Of a DNA stretch of 64,000 nucleotides, positions 4,901 to 33,398 are shown in pieces. The position numbers and the translations under genes are program-made. Numbering within the stretch: position 1 is the stretch's first letter; each line of letters begins with the position of its first letter. Origin of the DNA: Salminus brasiliensis (taxonomy: Eukaryota; Chordata; Actinopteri; Characiformes; Bryconidae). The DNA lies in the NCBI RefSeq assembly GCF_030463535.1, contig NC_132878.1, positions 35,652,261 to 35,716,260 on the forward strand, written 5' to 3'. The notes under the pieces were generated by a model. The model saw only the letters and a program-made list of their open reading frames with translations, did not search any database and was not told the DNA's origin.

Positions 4901-7152
4901 TTAAAACAGAGACAAGCTAACTAATGTAAGTAAGACGTGCAGCAAACAGAGCCAAGACCCACTTTTTTAGCTCTCTAACATTCACACACTTTACCTTTTC
5001 ACCCTCTCTCTGTGCCCATTCTTCTTTCCACTAAGATCCCTGCACGGAGCCCCCAGTGGTTGGTCCATGTAGAGGCACTTTCCCACGCTGGTATTATGAC
5101 TCGGCAGCTGGAGAGTGCAAGCACTTCTTGTACGGGGGCTGCAAAGGGAACCGCAACAACTTCCTGCAACAGGCGGATTGCGTGAACAAGTGCATTCAGA
5201 AACCTGGTGAGGAACTGCATGGTGTTCATTACGTTGGTCAGACCTACCTGCCTTTTTTAAAACAGCAACAGATATGAAAAATATAACACTTAAAGTTAAG
5301 CTATATTATATTTAGAATTTTTTTTAACCGGCCCACAAAAAAGTGTTTTAGTGAGAGAGAAGGTGGGAAACACGTAGGTACATGTTGGCCAACGCTCATG
5401 GATATCTCAACTAGGGATGCAGCAATCCGGCTTTTTCAGTTCCAATTCTGATACAAATACATCTGACACAAACTTTGCATTTCGATCAATACCCAATACC
5501 GATCTGATACCATTGTTGAATTAATAAACCATATACCTCACCATGTGGGTGAGACTTAAGGCATCAGGATTTGACTTTCAATCTTAATAAATCTTATTTT
5601 TAAATATTTAGCGTAATTCAAAATAAAATCTAGAAGCTGAACCTGAGAATAAATAAGTAACTTGGTCAAACTTACATGCAGCAATCAAAAATTGCAAACA
5701 TATAAACATTTAGTGCAGTCTCACACCAACAAATGAAAGTGAAAGGATCGGTTCCATGCATTGGCCAAATTATCCAATACCCGATCCAGCTAATTTTGTT
5801 AATATCGGGACCGATATCCGATCCTAATATCGGATCGGTACATCTCTAATCTTAACAAAATCACGACAGTGGTGGCAGCTTAGCTTAGAAATCAGACACT
5901 CTGAGTGTAAGTGTGGGCATATGTATCTTATAATACTGGTTTTGGATGCAGTTTATATCTTCCTGACATATAGCTGCTCACTTAACTGTGAAAGTGATTC
6001 CCAGATTAACATATTTAGTGCGTAAATAATGCAGTAACTAGATCAAATTGTGAGAATTATTAAATACTGTGAATACCGAAATTAAGTGAATTATCAAAAT
6101 ATCCATTTTGCATGTTCCTAGAGTTAATAGTTGGTATTTATTGCTGTTTCTATGATAAAAACTTTAGCTCAAACTACAACATTTTCGCAGCAGAATACTT
6201 GAAAGTATGACAGTGTTTGCCAAAGAGGCGTAAGAGCCGAAAAACATGTGCATCCAGGTTGTGGAAGAGTGGCCTAAAATGCACAGACAATTGTATCCAA
6301 GGTTTATAAAAGTAATCATGCAGTTATATGGAAAAGGTTTTAATAAATAATTAAAAATTATAGCTGGTTCAATGCAAATTCATGCCAGGCAAGCACATTG
6401 CCTCACCTAAGGCCGCAACAAACCGCAGCTCACTAAGTTAATGGTTGGTATTTATTGCTGTTTCTAGGATAAACACTTTAACCCAAACTACAACATTTTC
6501 GTAGCAGAACACTTGAAAATATGACAGTTTTGTCAAAGTGGTGTAAAAGCCGAAAAACATGTGGAATACATGTGGCAGGTTGTGGCCTTAAATGAACAGA
6601 CAATTATATCCAAGACTTTCTTTAGTGAGCCACTGTAGCTCACTAAAGAAAAGATACATAAGAATCTGCTCGAAAGAAATGTTGCAGTGAGAGATTGGTA
6701 CAACAGGGAGGCACAACAAGTTTGCCGGATCTTAAATAAAGTTAAAGTTATCCTTATCCTTATCCTTATTCAAGAACTGCTGGGCTGGCTACATTCCATT
6801 TCAGTGCCGGAATACACTATTAATACAACTGCAGTACTGTTGTGCAGTAACCAACATAGTTCAAATCAAGGTTAAACAGATTTAATTGAAATGTCTTACA
6901 GCTCCAGTGGATCAGCAAGCCACGGCAGCGCCCCCACCCACCACACAGGCAAACACAGGTACTACACTTCTGTTACGGTCATTTCCATTTTACAAGCACT
7001 GTATATGTTCATAGGGGTGTATTGATTCACAAAATTAATGTTTCAGTACTCGGTTTGGTAAAAAAATGAGTACCTACAAAATATTCCATATGTTAATATG
7101 CACTTTTTATGTGCAATATAAACATTATGAATCTAAAAATGTATGTGTGTAT

Positions 7153-7209
<57 letters not shown>

Positions 7210-10200
7210 TATAAACTGTCATATGAGAAACGTTTTAGCAGCATGTCAACTACACTGTTAAATGTGTATGATTCTTGAGGAACTTTTAGAGGTTTGAAAT
7301 TTTGGAGGAACCGCTTAAGATGCTTAGAGGAAACTTCAAGAAAATAAATAAAGTTCCTTGAAAGGTCCTCAAAGCACCTTAAGAGGTTCCTCCAGAATTT
7401 CAGAACCTCCAAAAAGGATTGTACATTTTAACAGTGTATAGACCAAAGGTGTGTGTGTGTAAACATATTAGAACATAGCTTGTGTACATTAGTGTATTTT
7501 TTTTTCATGCTTTTAGTGACATGGCCAAAAACATGCCCTTGTCTGGAGGCTTCCTTAAATGCAGTCAGAGCATTAGAACTACTAATATTACTGTAAATGT
7601 CCTGTTCCACTGTGAAGTACAGCAGACCCGAATCTGCTCTTTTACCTTCTGAGAATGCTCCTTACTTATGTGGGATGTAAATAATGTGCTTCTATGGGGC
7701 TTAGAAGACACCAGAGTATGCCGTCCTGGTACAGTAACAAAAAGGACTAAAAGGACTGTCACTGGGTAGAGCTTAAAATAGCTGATCGAATGTCGATAAA
7801 TTAGATTAGGATGTGAGAGGCATGACGGGGCTAAGTGTAAATAGGCTCAACTAGAATTTCTTCTGTCGTTTCTGACATGAATGATGCAGTGTTATCTATT
7901 CAAACAGACAAATGATCCATCATGTAGCTAAAACCAGTGGTAGCACCTATTTTAGAAACTATGTCTGTGTCTTGTTTGCTTGTGCTGTGTAATTCTGTAA
8001 CACTGGCCATGTCTTGCTGCACTGAGGCCCTGGAGGAACATTGTTCTGCTGTATTCCATATGATTAGGACTTGAGCTTGAATTTTGTCCATTCTTCTGCT
8101 GAACTTTCGCATCAAATGTAACATTCGACCTAATCTGACCTGCTGTTAGGATTTGCATGACCCTGACCATGTGTTAAGTAATTAATGAAGTGGGAAGTAG
8201 CTACCAGTGAACATAAGCCTGGATGTTTGTGTGTCTGTAGCTACCAGGTCTCCCAGCTCGGAAGCCAAACCCCAGAATTCTGCATCAGCAGCCCAGGACG
8301 CTCAACCAGTAGCTAAAGCCCACACGGTGCTGGGGGGACAGCCGCCCCCCGAGTCAGGTTTGTGCAATTATGACATTTGTAACGGCCAAGGATATACATT
8401 ACAACATTAATTAAAAGTCAAGAAAATGGTTTAAAAAGACCTGTGTGTTTTTGGTCAGTACTAGTGTTGTAGTAGAGGTTTTTGCTCTCGTCTCAGTCTC
8501 GACCTCATTTGGAATTGGCCTTGTCTTGGCCTCAGGGTGAGGTAGACCAGCCAAGTTAAAATGCGTTTGTCTGAGATAACGGTACTGAATAATAGTAACA
8601 TTTAAGAGTGTAGAAATCAACATGCCAAGCAGCTTAACTCTCTTCTGTCTCCATTAAAGCCACTGTACATCATACGGGTACATGCACTATATCGTATGGA
8701 CTGAACTATATTGTTTAGCATCACATAGCTTAACATAGCCGATATAGAACAAAGCGCTCCTGTACTACATAGGATACGTTGCCATAAGAGTGTCGATAAG
8801 CGCCAGGTTCAAGCTGACTTGCACCAGATCAACTCCAACCATATCTGCCTTCCAAAGAAAGAGGGTACAGGTATATGGTTGAAGTTACTAAATTTAAAAA
8901 ACATAGACCCAAACATTGCAGTGTCTACTTTTACCATTTTAAAGAGGGGACACCGACACCAGAACATGCTTACCAAGAAAAATGGCTCACAAGCACCCGA
9001 CGCATCTGCTTTACTGAAGCTCAATAAGGTTTTGCCTCCGCAAAATGGTAAGAGCAGACGTGCGGACCTTCACCTATAAGCTTTTATAGGTGAAGGTCCG
9101 CACGTCTGCTCTTACCATTAGGTCCTCTATTTTGGAAGGTACACCATCAGACTGATCTTTTTGTGTTGTGTTGAAAAGCTAGTATGCTCTGCTCCAGAAC
9201 AGAATAGAATAGAATTTTTGTTGGAATGTTGAGCTAGCATTGGTAGCTGCTTTATGATCAGTGCTCACAACAGTAGTCAGTAATGCCTTACATGTGTCCC
9301 GGTTGGCTTGGAGGCGGATGCGGACATATGTGCAGGTAATTTTAATGATTAACACATGAAACAAGGTACGACAGGATACAAAATGGAAACATGAAGTAGA
9401 GAGTAACCGAAGCACTCAAAGGCTTAACTTAAGACTCTGGACAGCACAGGCAAGAACTGGACAAACTATCCAACCGCAAACCGCCATGAACACGTACAAC
9501 CAAGGACATGTATACGAGCATGATATGCAAGACCAGCCAACAGCAGACTGAGACAAAAGGATCTCAATACACTGAAAGACAAGGAACACCTGGAGTTAAC
9601 AAGGGGGCGTGACATGAAAGGACTTTGAGGGCTTGACAGAATCAAAGACAGGCACAAAGGCAGAAGAAACAAACTCTGGAAAGTGGGTGTGGCAAAATAA
9701 GGTGGATAGATATATTTTATGTGTAAATAAGCAACTGTTTTGATCACAGTGAGTATGTATTTATTCTTTATTAATGGAATCACACAATTCAACATGTAAT
9801 AGTACTGCTATTAATAATAATGATAATCATAATAACAATAATAATATGAGTCATAACTGAGTAACACGACTACTCAGTGATTAATAATAGTAATAAGTAG
9901 AGCCATTTGTTTACATGCATTCATAACTACAGTTAGGGGAGCACCTTAAAAATGTATTCCTGTACAGATACAGGCTACCTGTTGAAAATGATAATTTGGC
10001 TGTTCTTAAACGCTGAGGAAAAAATGAATAATAGAAGAATGTCTTGAAGTCCCAAAATAAATGCAAAGCCCCTTATCAGGCAGGCAAGCAGCATGGGAAC
10101 CTTTAGTCTCTCTATCTCGTGCTTTTTCAACTTGGATGTCCGTAGCCCAATGTGAGCTGCTTTTGCTAGCTGGGACCTGACCAACATTCTGGTCAGCCAG

Positions 10201-10493
10201 GCTCAACAGGGCTCAAAAACTCAACAGTGGATGTAATCCACTGAGCGTAAAGGTGGAATTAAATGGGTTATCTTGCTCCTAGCATTGATGGTAGTTGCTT
10301 AGTAACCGTGTATCTATATTTACTGTGTTTGTGATTAGGTGCCATCCTACCCCTGGTTCTGGGGGTGATAATCAGTGCTCTGCTGTTGCTGATGGTGGCC
10401 TGCAGACTGCGCCTGGTGCGCCATAGGATGAAGAAAGCTCGGCCACTCACCACAGAGGAGTCCGATTACCTCATAAACGGCATGTACTTGTAG
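220..10493 (+). CDS. lrp11: LRP11-like type I membrane protein, 3' part of gene (7 coding exons, 5' end outside window)
   Basis: Coding exons are 220-361, 1428-1553, 1809-1985, 5036-5206, 6902-6958, 8241-8357 and 10339-10493 (stop TAG at 10491). Every junction is AG/GT and in phase 1, so the modules are symmetrical and shuffle-friendly. In order they encode the end of a PKD-type beta-sandwich (VYTFQMTVTDTVGQ), one LDL-receptor class A module (six Cys, CDGKQQCPDRSDEDFC), a linker with ten Gln, a Kunitz module, two Ser/Pro/Ala-rich linkers, and a last exon with a hydrophobic membrane span followed by RLRLVRHRMKKA and the tail EESDYLINGMYL. The membrane span and tail agree closely with what I know of mammalian LRP11. 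The expected MANSC domain and signal peptide should lie upstream of the window. LRP11 is a poorly understood single-pass surface protein. Its neighbour pcmt1 is convergent, as in human 6q25.1. Identity is firm; binding partners are unknown. Confidence 0.93.
362..1427. mobile_element. lrp11 intron holding a degraded non-autonomous DNA transposon copy (about 483-800)
   Basis: From about 483 to 800 the intron matches other copies in this window at 21140-21512 and 34712-35090. Shared words include TGCTGTGAGGAT, CCTATTCTATTGG and CAGTACTT. It is a decayed member of a Tc1-type MITE family. The ORFs within it are not genes. The rest of the intron shows nothing recognisable. Confidence 0.6.
1428..1553 (+). 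CDS. lrp11: lrp11 exon: LDL-receptor class A module
   Basis: A phase 1-1 exon of 126 bp that encodes one complete LDLa repeat. Six cysteines and the acidic calcium-binding tail (CPDRSDEDFC) are visible. LDLa modules fold around one calcium ion and often bind ligands. The acceptor is TTCCAG and the donor is GTGAGT. Confidence 0.93.
1809..1985 (+). CDS. lrp11: lrp11 exon: disordered linker with polyglutamine tract
   Basis: This 177-bp phase 1-1 exon links the LDLa and Kunitz modules. It is rich in Ser, Glu, Pro and Gln and ends with ten consecutive CAA codons (about 1940-1969). The pure CAA run behaves like a microsatellite and is likely to vary in length between individuals. The acceptor (GGAAG) is weaker than its neighbours, but reading frame and phase fit and DGGRKAVTHT agrees with the start of the equivalent mammalian linker. 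Confidence 0.85.
1986..5035. other. lrp11 intron of 3 kb
   Basis: No gene supported. It is AT-rich, with short antisense open frames lacking domains. Frequent short A/T runs but no clear repeat family were recognised by eye. Confidence 0.6.
5036..5206 (+). CDS. lrp11: lrp11 exon: Kunitz/BPTI serine-protease inhibitor module
   Basis: A phase 1-1 exon of 171 bp that encodes 57 residues with six cysteines in Kunitz spacing. Diagnostic blocks are GPCRGTFPRWYYD, FLYGGCKGNRNNF and CVNKC. The reactive-site P1 residue after the second Cys is Arg, which predicts inhibition of trypsin-like proteases. The block is strikingly like the first Kunitz domain of HAI-1/SPINT1. As I recall, mammalian LRP11 is annotated with MANSC, PKD and LDLa domains but no Kunitz domain, so this exon is either lost in mammals or fish-specific. 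Confidence 0.92.
5412..5848. mobile_element. hAT-like MITE in lrp11 intron
   Basis: The left end reads TAGGGATGCAGCAATCC. The right end, in reverse complement, reads TAGAGATGTACCGATCC. These match the TAGRGATGCACCGATCC ends typical of fish hAT-type MITEs. Internal pieces (ACCGATATCCGATCC, ATCGGTTCC) repeat the same sub-motif. No transposase is encoded. A clean target-site duplication is not obvious. Confidence 0.6.
6121..6619. repeat. Direct duplication of a segment of about 185 bp (6121-6305 and 6437-6619)
   Basis: Both copies carry TTGGTATTTATTGCTGTTTC, CAAACTACAACATTTTCG and AGCCGAAAAACATGTG in the same order and orientation, with scattered mismatches and indels. They are separated by about 130 bp. 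This is a local tandem-type duplication inside an lrp11 intron. Confidence 0.8.
7153..7203. repeat. (CT)n(TA)n microsatellite
   Basis: A compound simple repeat in an lrp11 intron: a run of CT units followed directly by a run of TA units. Confidence 0.95.
7251..7438. mobile_element. Fold-back MITE (188 bp, nearly palindromic)
   Basis: The ends are TACACTGTTAAATGTG and, in reverse complement, TACACTGTTAAAATG. Further inside, GGAGGAACCGCTTAAG on the left pairs with GGAGGAACCTCTTAAG of the reversed right arm. The arms span most of the element, so the RNA or single strand would fold into one long imperfect hairpin. It has no coding capacity. Confidence 0.75.
9044..9119. repeat. Perfect 76-bp palindrome (36-bp arms, 4-bp loop)
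   Basis: The left arm 9044-9079 starts AATGGTAAGAGCAGACGTGC. The right arm 9084-9119 is its exact reverse complement, with GCTT between. Complementarity stops sharply at both outer ends. It lies in an lrp11 intron. Confidence 0.95.
10339..10493 (+). CDS. lrp11: lrp11 last coding exon: transmembrane segment and cytoplasmic tail
   Basis: The exon opens with a hydrophobic stretch of about 22 residues (ILPLVLGVIISALLLLMVAC). A basic stop-transfer sequence (RLRLVRHRMKKAR) and a short tail ending DYLINGMYL follow. Topology is therefore type I, with the modules outside the cell. The acidic-Tyr tail could be a sorting signal; that is inference. Confidence 0.92.
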
Positions 10494-29424: not shown

Positions 29425-32400
29425 ATGGAGAGCATCAACGCGAAATACGTGTCTCAGAAGATCAGTAAAACGCGCTGGAGGCCTGTACAGGCGGCGTCCC
29501 TACACCAGCCACACTGCTTCGCCACCGGCTCCTGGGACAACGAGGTACCACCACCACCACCAACACAGACACACACACACATACACTGAACCCCGAGCTA
29601 CTGAACTCTTACTAACTCCCACAGTTACAGTGAGGACCTGACTGCACTGATCGATGCTATTTCGCCGTTAGGTAGCTACTAGCGTTTATACAGTTAACGG
29701 CTGTGTTCTTCCTGTGTGCTGCTAACGTTAACAGCCGCACTAGCTGTACCCTAGATTAACACACTGTCTTTAAAACAGCATGGGGGGTGATTTACCTGGA
29801 CTGTGGTGTTCAGCTGAGCTTCACGTTAAGAGCAGTACCACCGATTGGTCAGAAGCTCTTTATCATTCATTCATTGAGATGTAGCTAAATGAAGTGTCTA
29901 CAGTCTGCACTTATAGCCATTTCATCTACACACTATACACACCCACAGCCTCCAAGTGTCTCTACTAAATCCTTAAAAAAATACCATTTCTGAAAGTAGC
30001 TCTCATTCATGAATGGTGTTTAAAAGGATGTTTAGGTGTAAATGTCATCATAGAGCTCTCGCTAATATATCAGGCAAGTTATTCAGATTTTTATGCAACA
30101 ACTTTCTTGTGATGAGCCGTTAAAGGACCACTATGTAAAGTTTTTACCTTAAGATAACAGCTTGGTCGTGATGCTTCATTGACTTGTAATCTGAGGAATA
30201 GCATCTATATTATTCCCCATTCGGGGCTCAGCACGCTGCTAACTGCACTATGTAACTCTGGAGAAGCGAGCACTTCATTTAATTTATTTTTTATTTACTC
30301 TCATGGCCTATCGATGGCATAGTTTTTATCAGTAGAGACTATGATAGTGTTCTTTAACCTCTAAGACACTTTGGAAACATTGGTTTCTTTGTAGTTGTGC
30401 ACACTTGATTACTGTAGCAGCTTTGTATCTGTTTAGTTCCTAGATCAGGACAGATGGACAATGGACAATGTCCTGACAATGTCCTGCTCCAGCATCATCC
30501 ACAGGAGCCGTGACCATCTATAAACTTCAAGCTAATCGGAGGAAGAGCATCTATATTGTTCCCTATTCAGGGCTCAGCCCGCTGCTAACTGCACTATGTA
30601 ACTCTGGAGAAGCGAGCACTTTATTTTCTGTGTAAAAACCTGTAATATTACTCTACCGCATATGATTATTTCTCTTTTAGTGATGGTTCTGTATGCGTGT
30701 ACATAATGAGTTATATTTCCTGACTGTGGGGGGAGCTCATGAGCAAGAAGTACCAATTGTCTGTACTGCTGCTTTAAGCCAATAAACGCTTTGGGATGTT
30801 TTACATTTACCCTCCCTGAATTAAGGAAACCTAACTTTTAACAGTTCTTTAAAAAAAAAAAAAAAGATCCCAGAAAACTACATACATTGGACTTAACTAC
30901 ACCTTTAAATCCTGTTGCTAAACCTTGAAATCAACAGTGTTGTACAGCATCAGCACCAATGTACGGGCAAAGACAATAGTCCAGCCAGTCATCCAACTGT
31001 AGCATAACTAGCTTCCTAGTTACTCTCCTGGCAAGCGCTCAACCTCTGTTCCAGCTCGTCTTGGGTCGTGTTAAAATGCAGACAACCAAAGGGTGATGAC
31101 AGGGTTGTGGGTTCGATACCTGGGTTTGGCAAGCTGCCACTGTTTGGCCCTTTAGTAAGAGCGCCACAGGAGTGGCTGCCCGCCGCTTCGGGCATGTGTG
31201 CTCACTGTCGCCGCGTGTGTTTGCTCACTAGTACGTATGTGTGTGTTCACTGCATGGATTGGTTAAAGGCAGAGACCAAATTCCAGCTGGTGAATATGGT
31301 CTTGTCTTACTTTGTGTAACATGCTGCATTACTGTTGTGCTTACAGACTAATCATGTTTGCATCTGGAGCGTGGGAGAGACTGGAATGATTTGTGAAGAT
31401 GATGCGCTGGAGGGAGATCCACAATTACTGTGTGATTGTAAACATGGAGGAGATGTGCTGGACTTGCAGGTGAGTCTCATGAAAATTTGAGACTGGGAGT
31501 TATTCATGCCATCTTTTAGCTAGAGATGAAATAATGCGTATACTGTCAGGTTTGATAATATCCTTCATTTTAGGGGGTCTTCAGCGTTTTACGTGGGTAG
31601 GTTGGGTTTCCCAAAAGCATCTTAGCACAAAAAGGATTCCTAAACTGTTGAGCAGCTTTACACTAAGCCCCCTCTCTACCAGTTAAGATACATTTTAAAG
31701 CTAAGATGCTTTTGAGAAAAATGGAGCCAGATTGGTTCGGATCAGAACATTTTACAAGTACTTCTGCAAAATAGAAAGCTTTATATATATATATACAGTG
31801 GGGAGAACAAGTATTTGATACACTGCTGATTTTTCAGGTTTTCCCACTTGCAAAGCATGTAGAAGACTGTAATTTTTATCATAGGTACTCTTCAACTGTG
31901 AGTGATGGAATCTAAAACAAAAATCCAGAAAAATACATTGTATGATTTTTAAATAATTAATTTCCATTTTATTGTGGGAAATAAGTATTTGATCATCTAT
32001 CAACCAGTAAGAATTTTGGCTCTCACAGACATGTTACTTCTTCTTTAAGAAGCCCTCCTGTTCTCCACTCATTACCTGTATTAACTGCACCTGTTTGAAC
32101 TCGTTACCTGTATAAAAGACACCTGTCCACACACTTAATCAGTCAGACCCCAGCATCTCCACAATGCCCAAGACCAGAGAGCTTTGTAAGGACATCAGGG
32201 ATAAAATTGTAGACCTGCACAAGGCTGGGATGGGCTACAGGACAATAGGCAAGCAGCTTGGTGAGAAGGCAACAACTGTTGGTGCAATTATTAGAAAATG
32301 GAAGAAATGCAAAATAACGGATAATCTCCCTCGGTCTGGGGCGCCATGCAAGATCTCACCTCGTGAAGCATCAATGATCTTGAGGAAGGTGAGGAATGAG

Positions 32401-33398
32401 CCCAGAATTACACGGCAGGACCTGGTCAATGACCTGAATAGAGCTGGGACCACAGTCTCAAAGAAAACAATCAGTAACACTCTACGCCGTCAAGGATTAA
32501 AATCCTGCAGTGCACGCAAGGTGCCCTTCCTCAAGCCAACGCATGTCAAAGCCCGTCTGAAGTTTGCAAATGACCATCTGAATGATCCAGAGGAGGAATG
32601 GGAGAAGGTCATGTGGTCTGATGAGACAAAAATAGAACTTTTTGGTTTAAACTCCACTCGTCATGTTTGGAGGAAGAAGAATGATGAGTACAACCCCAAG
32701 AACACCATCCCAACCGTGAAGCATGGCGGTGGAAACATCATTCTTTGGGGATGCTTTTCTGCAAAGGGGACAGGACGACTGCACCGTATTGTGGGAAGGA
32801 TGGATGGGGCCATGTATCGTGAGATTTTGGCCAACAACCTCCTTCCCTCAGTAAGAGCACTGAAGATGGGTCGTGGCTGGGTCTTCCAGCATGATATCGA
32901 CCCAAAACACACAGCCAGGGCAACTAAAGAGTGGCTCCGTAGGAAACATCTTAAGGTCCTGGAGTGGCCTAGCCAGTCTCCAGACCTGAATCCAATAGAA
33001 AATCTTTGGAGGGAGCTTAAAGTCCGTGTGGCCCAGCGACAGCCACGAAACCTGAAGGCTCTGGAGGAGATCTGTATGGAGGAGTGGGCCAAAATCCCTG
33101 CTGCAGTGTGTGCAAACCTTGTCAAGAACTACAGGAAATGTCTCATCTCTGTAATTGCAAACAAAGGTTTCTGTACCAAATATTAAGTTTCTTTTTCTGG
33201 TGTATCAAATACTTATTTCCCACAATAAAATGGAAATTAATTATTTAAAAATCATACAATGTATTTTTCTGGATTTTTGTTTTAGATTCCATCACTCACA
33301 GTTGAAGAGTACCTATGATAAAAATTACAGTCTTCTACATGCTTTGCAAGTGGGAAAACCTGAAAAATCAGCAGTGTATCAAATACTTGTTCTCCCCA

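Follow-up and report, generated by a model that had tools for sequence, protein, structure and literature searches.

According to the available part of PMC12940448, the first Kunitz domain (KD1, or Kunitz 1) of HAI-1 (SPINT1) carries the inhibition of matriptase, hepsin and HGFA, and the binding of matriptase is governed by P1, P3, P1' and the P3' Phe. The second domain (KD2, or Kunitz 2) shows little activity towards matriptase and HGFA, and still inhibits trypsin (PMC12940448).

LRP11 has been described with a MANEC domain (PMC9935665), and MANEC and PKD are given among the domains of the LRP family (PMC11772764, PMC8469001), as far as the available text of these papers extends; the word Kunitz is absent from the main text of all three. 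A conditioned-medium proteomics study (PMC2793532), in the portion available, places human LRP11 among the type I proteins. Among the literature matches listed, LRP11 is mainly a cancer, plasma or proteomic marker. No link between LRP11 and a Kunitz domain was found among these matches, subscription papers lying mostly outside their scope, and where the available texts mention both, they are never about one protein. To our knowledge, LRP11 has no agreed function, and the linker of the human protein contains no Kunitz domain. The absence of this domain from mammalian LRP11 is here taken from literature descriptions, available in part; automatic protein-database annotation may well already show a Kunitz domain in fish LRP11. 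The LRP11 literature is muddled by the name being given to another protein, SorLA (LR11), in the available text of PMC5331069 and PMC7406569.

Here we consider the lrp11 gene of Salminus brasiliensis, part of which lies in a stretch of 64,000 nucleotides (NC_132878.1, positions 35,652,261 to 35,716,260, forward strand; the window). The Kunitz exon of this gene is real. Taken as a whole, it seems to us probable that LRP11 and HAI-1 come from one Kunitz-bearing MANEC-PKD-LDLa membrane protein, and that the fish protein, a putative surface inhibitor, has kept one of the Kunitz exons.

The Kunitz exon of lrp11

The exon occupies positions 5036–5206 of the window on the forward strand (171 nt, 57 codons, phase 1 at both ends), with the acceptor AG at 5034–5035 and the donor GTGAGG from 5207, and its translation is PCTEPPVVGPCRGTFPRWYYDSAAGECKHFLYGGCKGNRNNFLQQADCVNKCIQKP. 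The Pfam search assigns it to PF00014 (Kunitz_BPTI) with 76.2 bits (cut-off 21; E 2.3e-21). It covers positions 2–52 of the 53 in the profile, and the six cysteines stand in Kunitz spacing. The P1 residue, next after the second cysteine, is Arg, one of the two residues (Arg or Lys) looked for there. Thus the complete phase 1-1 Kunitz exon with an Arg P1, proposed in the sequence-only reading, is confirmed by the splice sites, the profile score and the loop GPCRGTFPRWYYD. The acceptor reads AAG, and A at position -3 is an uncommon choice.

When the window and 30 kb upstream were scanned in six frames, this exon was the sole clear Kunitz stretch (E 1.2e-22, the runner-up having E 0.17); the scan profile was built from 46 domains, that of lrp11 among them. 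NCBIfam gave no match for the exon. Viral contigs gave one partial match to it, of 16 residues, and none to the lrp11 tail.

Identity and structure of the host gene

The exon order of the gene is MANEC, two PKD halves, LDLa, a linker, Kunitz, two further linkers, and the transmembrane helix with the tail. Upstream of the window are the first exon, which opens signal-like and encodes MANEC (87.1 bits), and the exon of the first PKD half (37.9 bits). Within the window, all on the forward strand, follow the C-terminal half of PKD at 220–361 (phase 0 to phase 1; K319L-like_PKD, 38.2 bits, cut-off 27) and the LDL-receptor class A domain at 1428–1553 (phase 1-1, with splice sites; PF00057, 36.7 bits). 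The linker exons at 1809–1985 (with a glutamine tract), 6902–6958 (Pro/Thr/Ala-rich) and 8241–8357 (donor GTTTGT), all of phase 1-1, were recognised solely by their open frame, their phase and their splice sites. The exon 1809–1985 is the least certain in the gene, since its acceptor AAG has a poor pyrimidine tract. It contains a perfect (AAC)11 at 1938–1970, read as the glutamine tract and possibly length-variable. The last exon, 10339–10493, encodes the transmembrane helix and the cytoplasmic tail ending EESDYLINGMYL, followed by the stop; no Pfam family was above cut-off for it. Hence the earlier placement of the Kunitz exon between the LDLa and transmembrane exons is right as to order, but not as to direct adjacency, as one linker precedes the exon and two follow it.

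MANEC, PKD and one LDLa occur in the LRP11 order by their coordinates, and are followed by a transmembrane helix recognised by eye. Compared with a provisional human LRP11 sequence, the identity is 46% for MANEC, 56% and 76% for the first and second PKD halves, 76% for LDLa and 78% for the tail. The last value refers to 51 aa of transmembrane helix and tail aligned with this human sequence, which we take to end in SDYLINGMYL. The same window contains pcmt1 (62.4 bits to 1i1n), nup43 (137.8 bits to 4i79) and a kinase domain (141.9 bits) called lats1 by eye, and the human neighbours of LRP11 are presumably PCMT1, NUP43 and LATS1. Since the domain pieces match the provisional human LRP11 and the neighbours agree, the host gene is lrp11, as the first reading had it. 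The segment 5036–5206 is a real coding exon in this orthologue. The listing of the human protein as type I, in the part available of PMC2793532, agrees with the topology proposed for the fish protein. Elsewhere in the window, at 32116–33186, there is an open frame of 356 aa resembling, by eye, a Tc1/mariner transposase.

The exon would be expected in the lrp11 mRNA. It may instead be a cassette whose Kunitz domain is present in certain tissues only, like the KPI of APP and KD1 of mouse HAI-2, so that the main LRP11 isoform would be no inhibitor; we regard this as unlikely, though a serious candidate. At 171 nt and phase 1-1, the exon could be skipped without a frame shift; the introns beside it are about 3.05 and 1.7 kb long, the acceptor is AAG, and KD1 is missing from the main isoform of mouse HAI-2 (PMC12940448, available part). 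However, the LDLa and linker exons are of phase 1-1 as well, so skippability is not specific to the Kunitz exon.

Common descent with HAI-1

A Kunitz search of the fish's own genome (1.066 Gb, 103 contigs) gave 43 matches. Two of them belong to a second gene on the same contig as lrp11, with the exons MANEC-PKD|PKD-Kunitz 1-LDLa-Kunitz 2; judged from this architecture, the gene is spint1 (HAI-1). The two genes have the same phase at every readable domain exon boundary. In both, the PKD domain is cut by a phase 0 intron, the positions being one codon apart in the alignment; the acceptor side was read in both genes, and for lrp11 alone the donor side as well. The agreement of domain order, exon phases and the PKD-splitting intron makes common descent of LRP11 and HAI-1 well supported, at the level of gene structure, and the earlier suggestion of a common ancestry is upheld.

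The footprint of the exon on the domain points the same way. In lrp11, 5 nt of the exon precede the first Cys codon and 13 nt follow the last. This exact 171-nt footprint was found for six of the seven Kunitz matches at MANEC loci (lrp11, spint1 and loci on contigs C10 and C11) and for 2/34 others (Fisher p 4e-5, post hoc), MANEC having been looked for at these loci only, and any GT or AG in the expected position being counted, true splice site or not. The count covers 41 of the 43 matches, two being dropped for want of the six-Cys pattern.

Two of these loci deserve mention in their own right. The locus at C10:29652–29660 kb is a further spint1-like one and carries MANEC, LDLa and a single Kunitz; PKD and Kunitz 1 were not found in stretches that include 5000 N. 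At C11:18529.9–18535.6 kb MANEC is followed by three Kunitz exons, unlike HAI-1, and this is possibly a fish HAI-2-type gene.

The single domains are less specific to HAI-1. Among PDB chains the lrp11 PKD half scores 58.9 bits with KIAA0319L and 25.8 bits with HAI-1 over the whole chain, and 30.2 against 25.1 bits for the best single domain. For LDLa, many chains of the LDL-receptor family outscore HAI-1 (24.7 bits). LRP11 is therefore only a candidate for the nearest sister of HAI-1 among MANEC proteins, on the strength of the shared exon structure. Nor is lrp11 itself HAI-1, defined by two Kunitz domains flanking LDLa: it has one, and there is a separate spint1 in the genome. A remnant of a second Kunitz exon was sought between PKD and LDLa of lrp11 by the six-frame scan, and none was seen.

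Affinity of the Kunitz domain

The loop CRG[ST]FPRW occurs in two of the 43 genome matches, namely lrp11 (CRGTFPRW) and Kunitz 1 of spint1 (CRGSFPRW). From P3 to P4' the lrp11 loop is that of the fish's own HAI-1 Kunitz 1, except for Thr instead of Ser at P2'. The whole domain gives a mixed picture. With human HAI-1 there are at least 27/51 identical residues for Kunitz 1 and at least 22/51 for Kunitz 2, whereas with spint1 of the same genome the corresponding lower bounds are 24/51 for Kunitz 1 and 26/51 for Kunitz 2, at scores of 172 and 164, respectively. Two traits are Kunitz 2-like: the place behind LDLa, and the opening CxxPPVxGPCR, which lrp11 has in common with spint1 Kunitz 2 and its relative on C10.

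Phylogenetic trees of 52–53 columns do not settle the matter. In the tree of 46 of the 48 rows (two matches without the six-Cys pattern dropped), placement with Kunitz 1 or Kunitz 2 is not separated, and the nearest row by path is HAI-1 Kunitz 1. In constrained trees of 18/48 rows, chosen by hand, with a long-branch warning, grouping of lrp11 with Kunitz 1 is at 0 lnL (p-AU 0.503), and grouping with Kunitz 2 is 5.4 lnL worse (p-AU 0.154). Thus the tree against SPINT1, proposed together with the sequence-only reading, does not decide between the two. The likeness to HAI-1 Kunitz 1 claimed there holds for the loop, but is not settled for the domain as a whole.

Moreover, the closest solved-structure match is domain 3 of SmCI, with 63.0 bits against 60.9 for HAI-1 (best domains). 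As it outscores HAI-1, overall identity alone proves little; and as it beats HAI-1 Kunitz 1 in the PDB search, a Kunitz 1-like loop is possible outside the HAI family.

An origin by lineage-specific gain has to be weighed here, in which shuffling would have brought a Kunitz exon into a fish lrp11 without one, instead of the exon being kept from the HAI-1/LRP11 ancestor. We consider this improbable. Phase 1-1 Kunitz exons move readily, the trees leave the placement undivided between Kunitz 1 and Kunitz 2, and LRP11 descriptions in the available text of PMC9935665, PMC11772764 and PMC8469001 name no Kunitz. On the other hand, lrp11 already has the HAI-1 architecture, with Kunitz after LDLa in both genes, its exon footprint agrees with the HAI family, and there is no close donor, as among the other 42 matches in the genome the nearest has 26/51 residues identical to the lrp11 domain, counted as a lower bound. 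Since the nearest other Kunitz of the genome is that distant, the exon is old; on the same comparison a recent copy from another Kunitz gene is rejected.

Proposed function

The preferred reading is retention. The common ancestor of LRP11 and HAI-1 would have been a MANEC-PKD-LDLa membrane protein with Kunitz exons, one of which fish lrp11 would have retained. The HAI-1-like exon build and the intact Kunitz domain suggest that lrp11 may have begun as a cell-surface protease inhibitor. The protein is predicted to be of type I, its transmembrane helix holding the Kunitz domain at the cell surface and flexible linkers spacing it. At P3, P1, P1' and P3' lrp11 has Pro, Arg, Gly and Phe, the residues also found in the fish's own HAI-1 Kunitz 1. 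We infer that the protein inhibits trypsin-like proteases while anchored at the cell surface. The Arg P1 loop would most likely enter the S1 pocket of trypsin-like serine proteases of the matriptase, hepsin and HGFA class, the domain acting as a tight, slowly cleaved substrate mimic. The likeliest role of lrp11 is to inhibit matriptase-like proteases from its anchor in the membrane, a role that would be ancestral to LRP11 and would have been lost in mammals.

Many Kunitz domains are non-inhibitory, and that of lrp11 could likewise fold and serve as a binding module or spacer, a reading to which we give little credence. Its positional equivalent, HAI-1 KD2, is weak on matriptase and HGFA, which counts against matriptase inhibition by lrp11, and at P3 human HAI-1 Kunitz 1 has Arg, contacting matriptase, where lrp11 has Pro (PMC12940448, available part). 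However, lrp11 shares Arg P1, Gly P1' and Phe P3' with Kunitz 1 of its own genome, and even KD2 retains trypsin inhibition (PMC12940448, available part).

If lrp11 is an inhibitor, a Kunitz domain within HAI-1-type exon architecture in a fish gives LRP11 a testable ancestral function, namely to keep matriptase-class proteases in check at the cell surface. This bears on redundancy where fish hai1 mutants model matriptase control. It also calls for caution in classing LRP11 with LDL receptors, which rests on one LDLa domain. A bolder view, which we put forward tentatively and hold slightly short of an even chance, is that LRP11 may functionally be no LDL-receptor relative. It would instead be a sister to HAI-1 in vertebrates and add a third type to the membrane-anchored Kunitz inhibitors that act on pericellular serine proteases, still armed in fishes, disarmed by loss of the Kunitz exon toward mammals, and there a leftover scaffold.

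Maintenance of the exon

In a simulation of neutral drift, the frame and all six cysteines were kept in three of 2000 runs at 47% divergence, the distance between lrp11 and human HAI-1 Kunitz 1, and in 14, 62 and 178 at 40%, 30% and 20%, respectively. The rows of lower divergence are the fairer ones, because the 47% distance is split over two branches. A disused exon of equal age would, under this model, most probably be broken; were the lrp11 branch to account for just a share of the divergence, survival by drift would not be negligible (178/2000 at 20%). A chance or relic exon at 5036–5206 is unlikely, given the Pfam score, the lone match at the locus and this simulation.

Comparison with known systems

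The KPI of APP and APLP2 resembles the lrp11 domain in that one Kunitz exon, which can be skipped, encodes it within a type I membrane protein. Three Kunitz matches of the fish genome, which we take to be APP-like, also have Arg at P1. The host protein is different, and the loop starts CRA in these three matches, as against CRGTFP in lrp11.

Domain 3 of SmCI (4bd9), presumably an annelid inhibitor, has at least 29/51 residues identical to the lrp11 domain, with the loop CKGSFPRYYYD. The solved chain consists of three Kunitz stretches in 165 residues, without the other lrp11 modules.

Mammalian LRP11, judged from the provisional human sequence, shares MANEC, PKD, LDLa, the transmembrane helix and the tail with the fish protein. 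Kunitz goes unnamed for it in the LRP family descriptions of PMC9935665, PMC11772764 and PMC8469001, in the text available.

HAI-1 agrees with lrp11 in having MANEC, LDLa and Kunitz, in the phase 0 intron that interrupts PKD, in the exon phases, and also in the transmembrane helix, which for HAI-1 is taken from the available part of PMC12940448. It differs in having two Kunitz domains, before and after LDLa, whereas lrp11 has one, after LDLa. Unlike HAI-1, lrp11 has the glutamine-tract linker before Kunitz and two linker exons after it, and its tail and synteny are those of LRP11.
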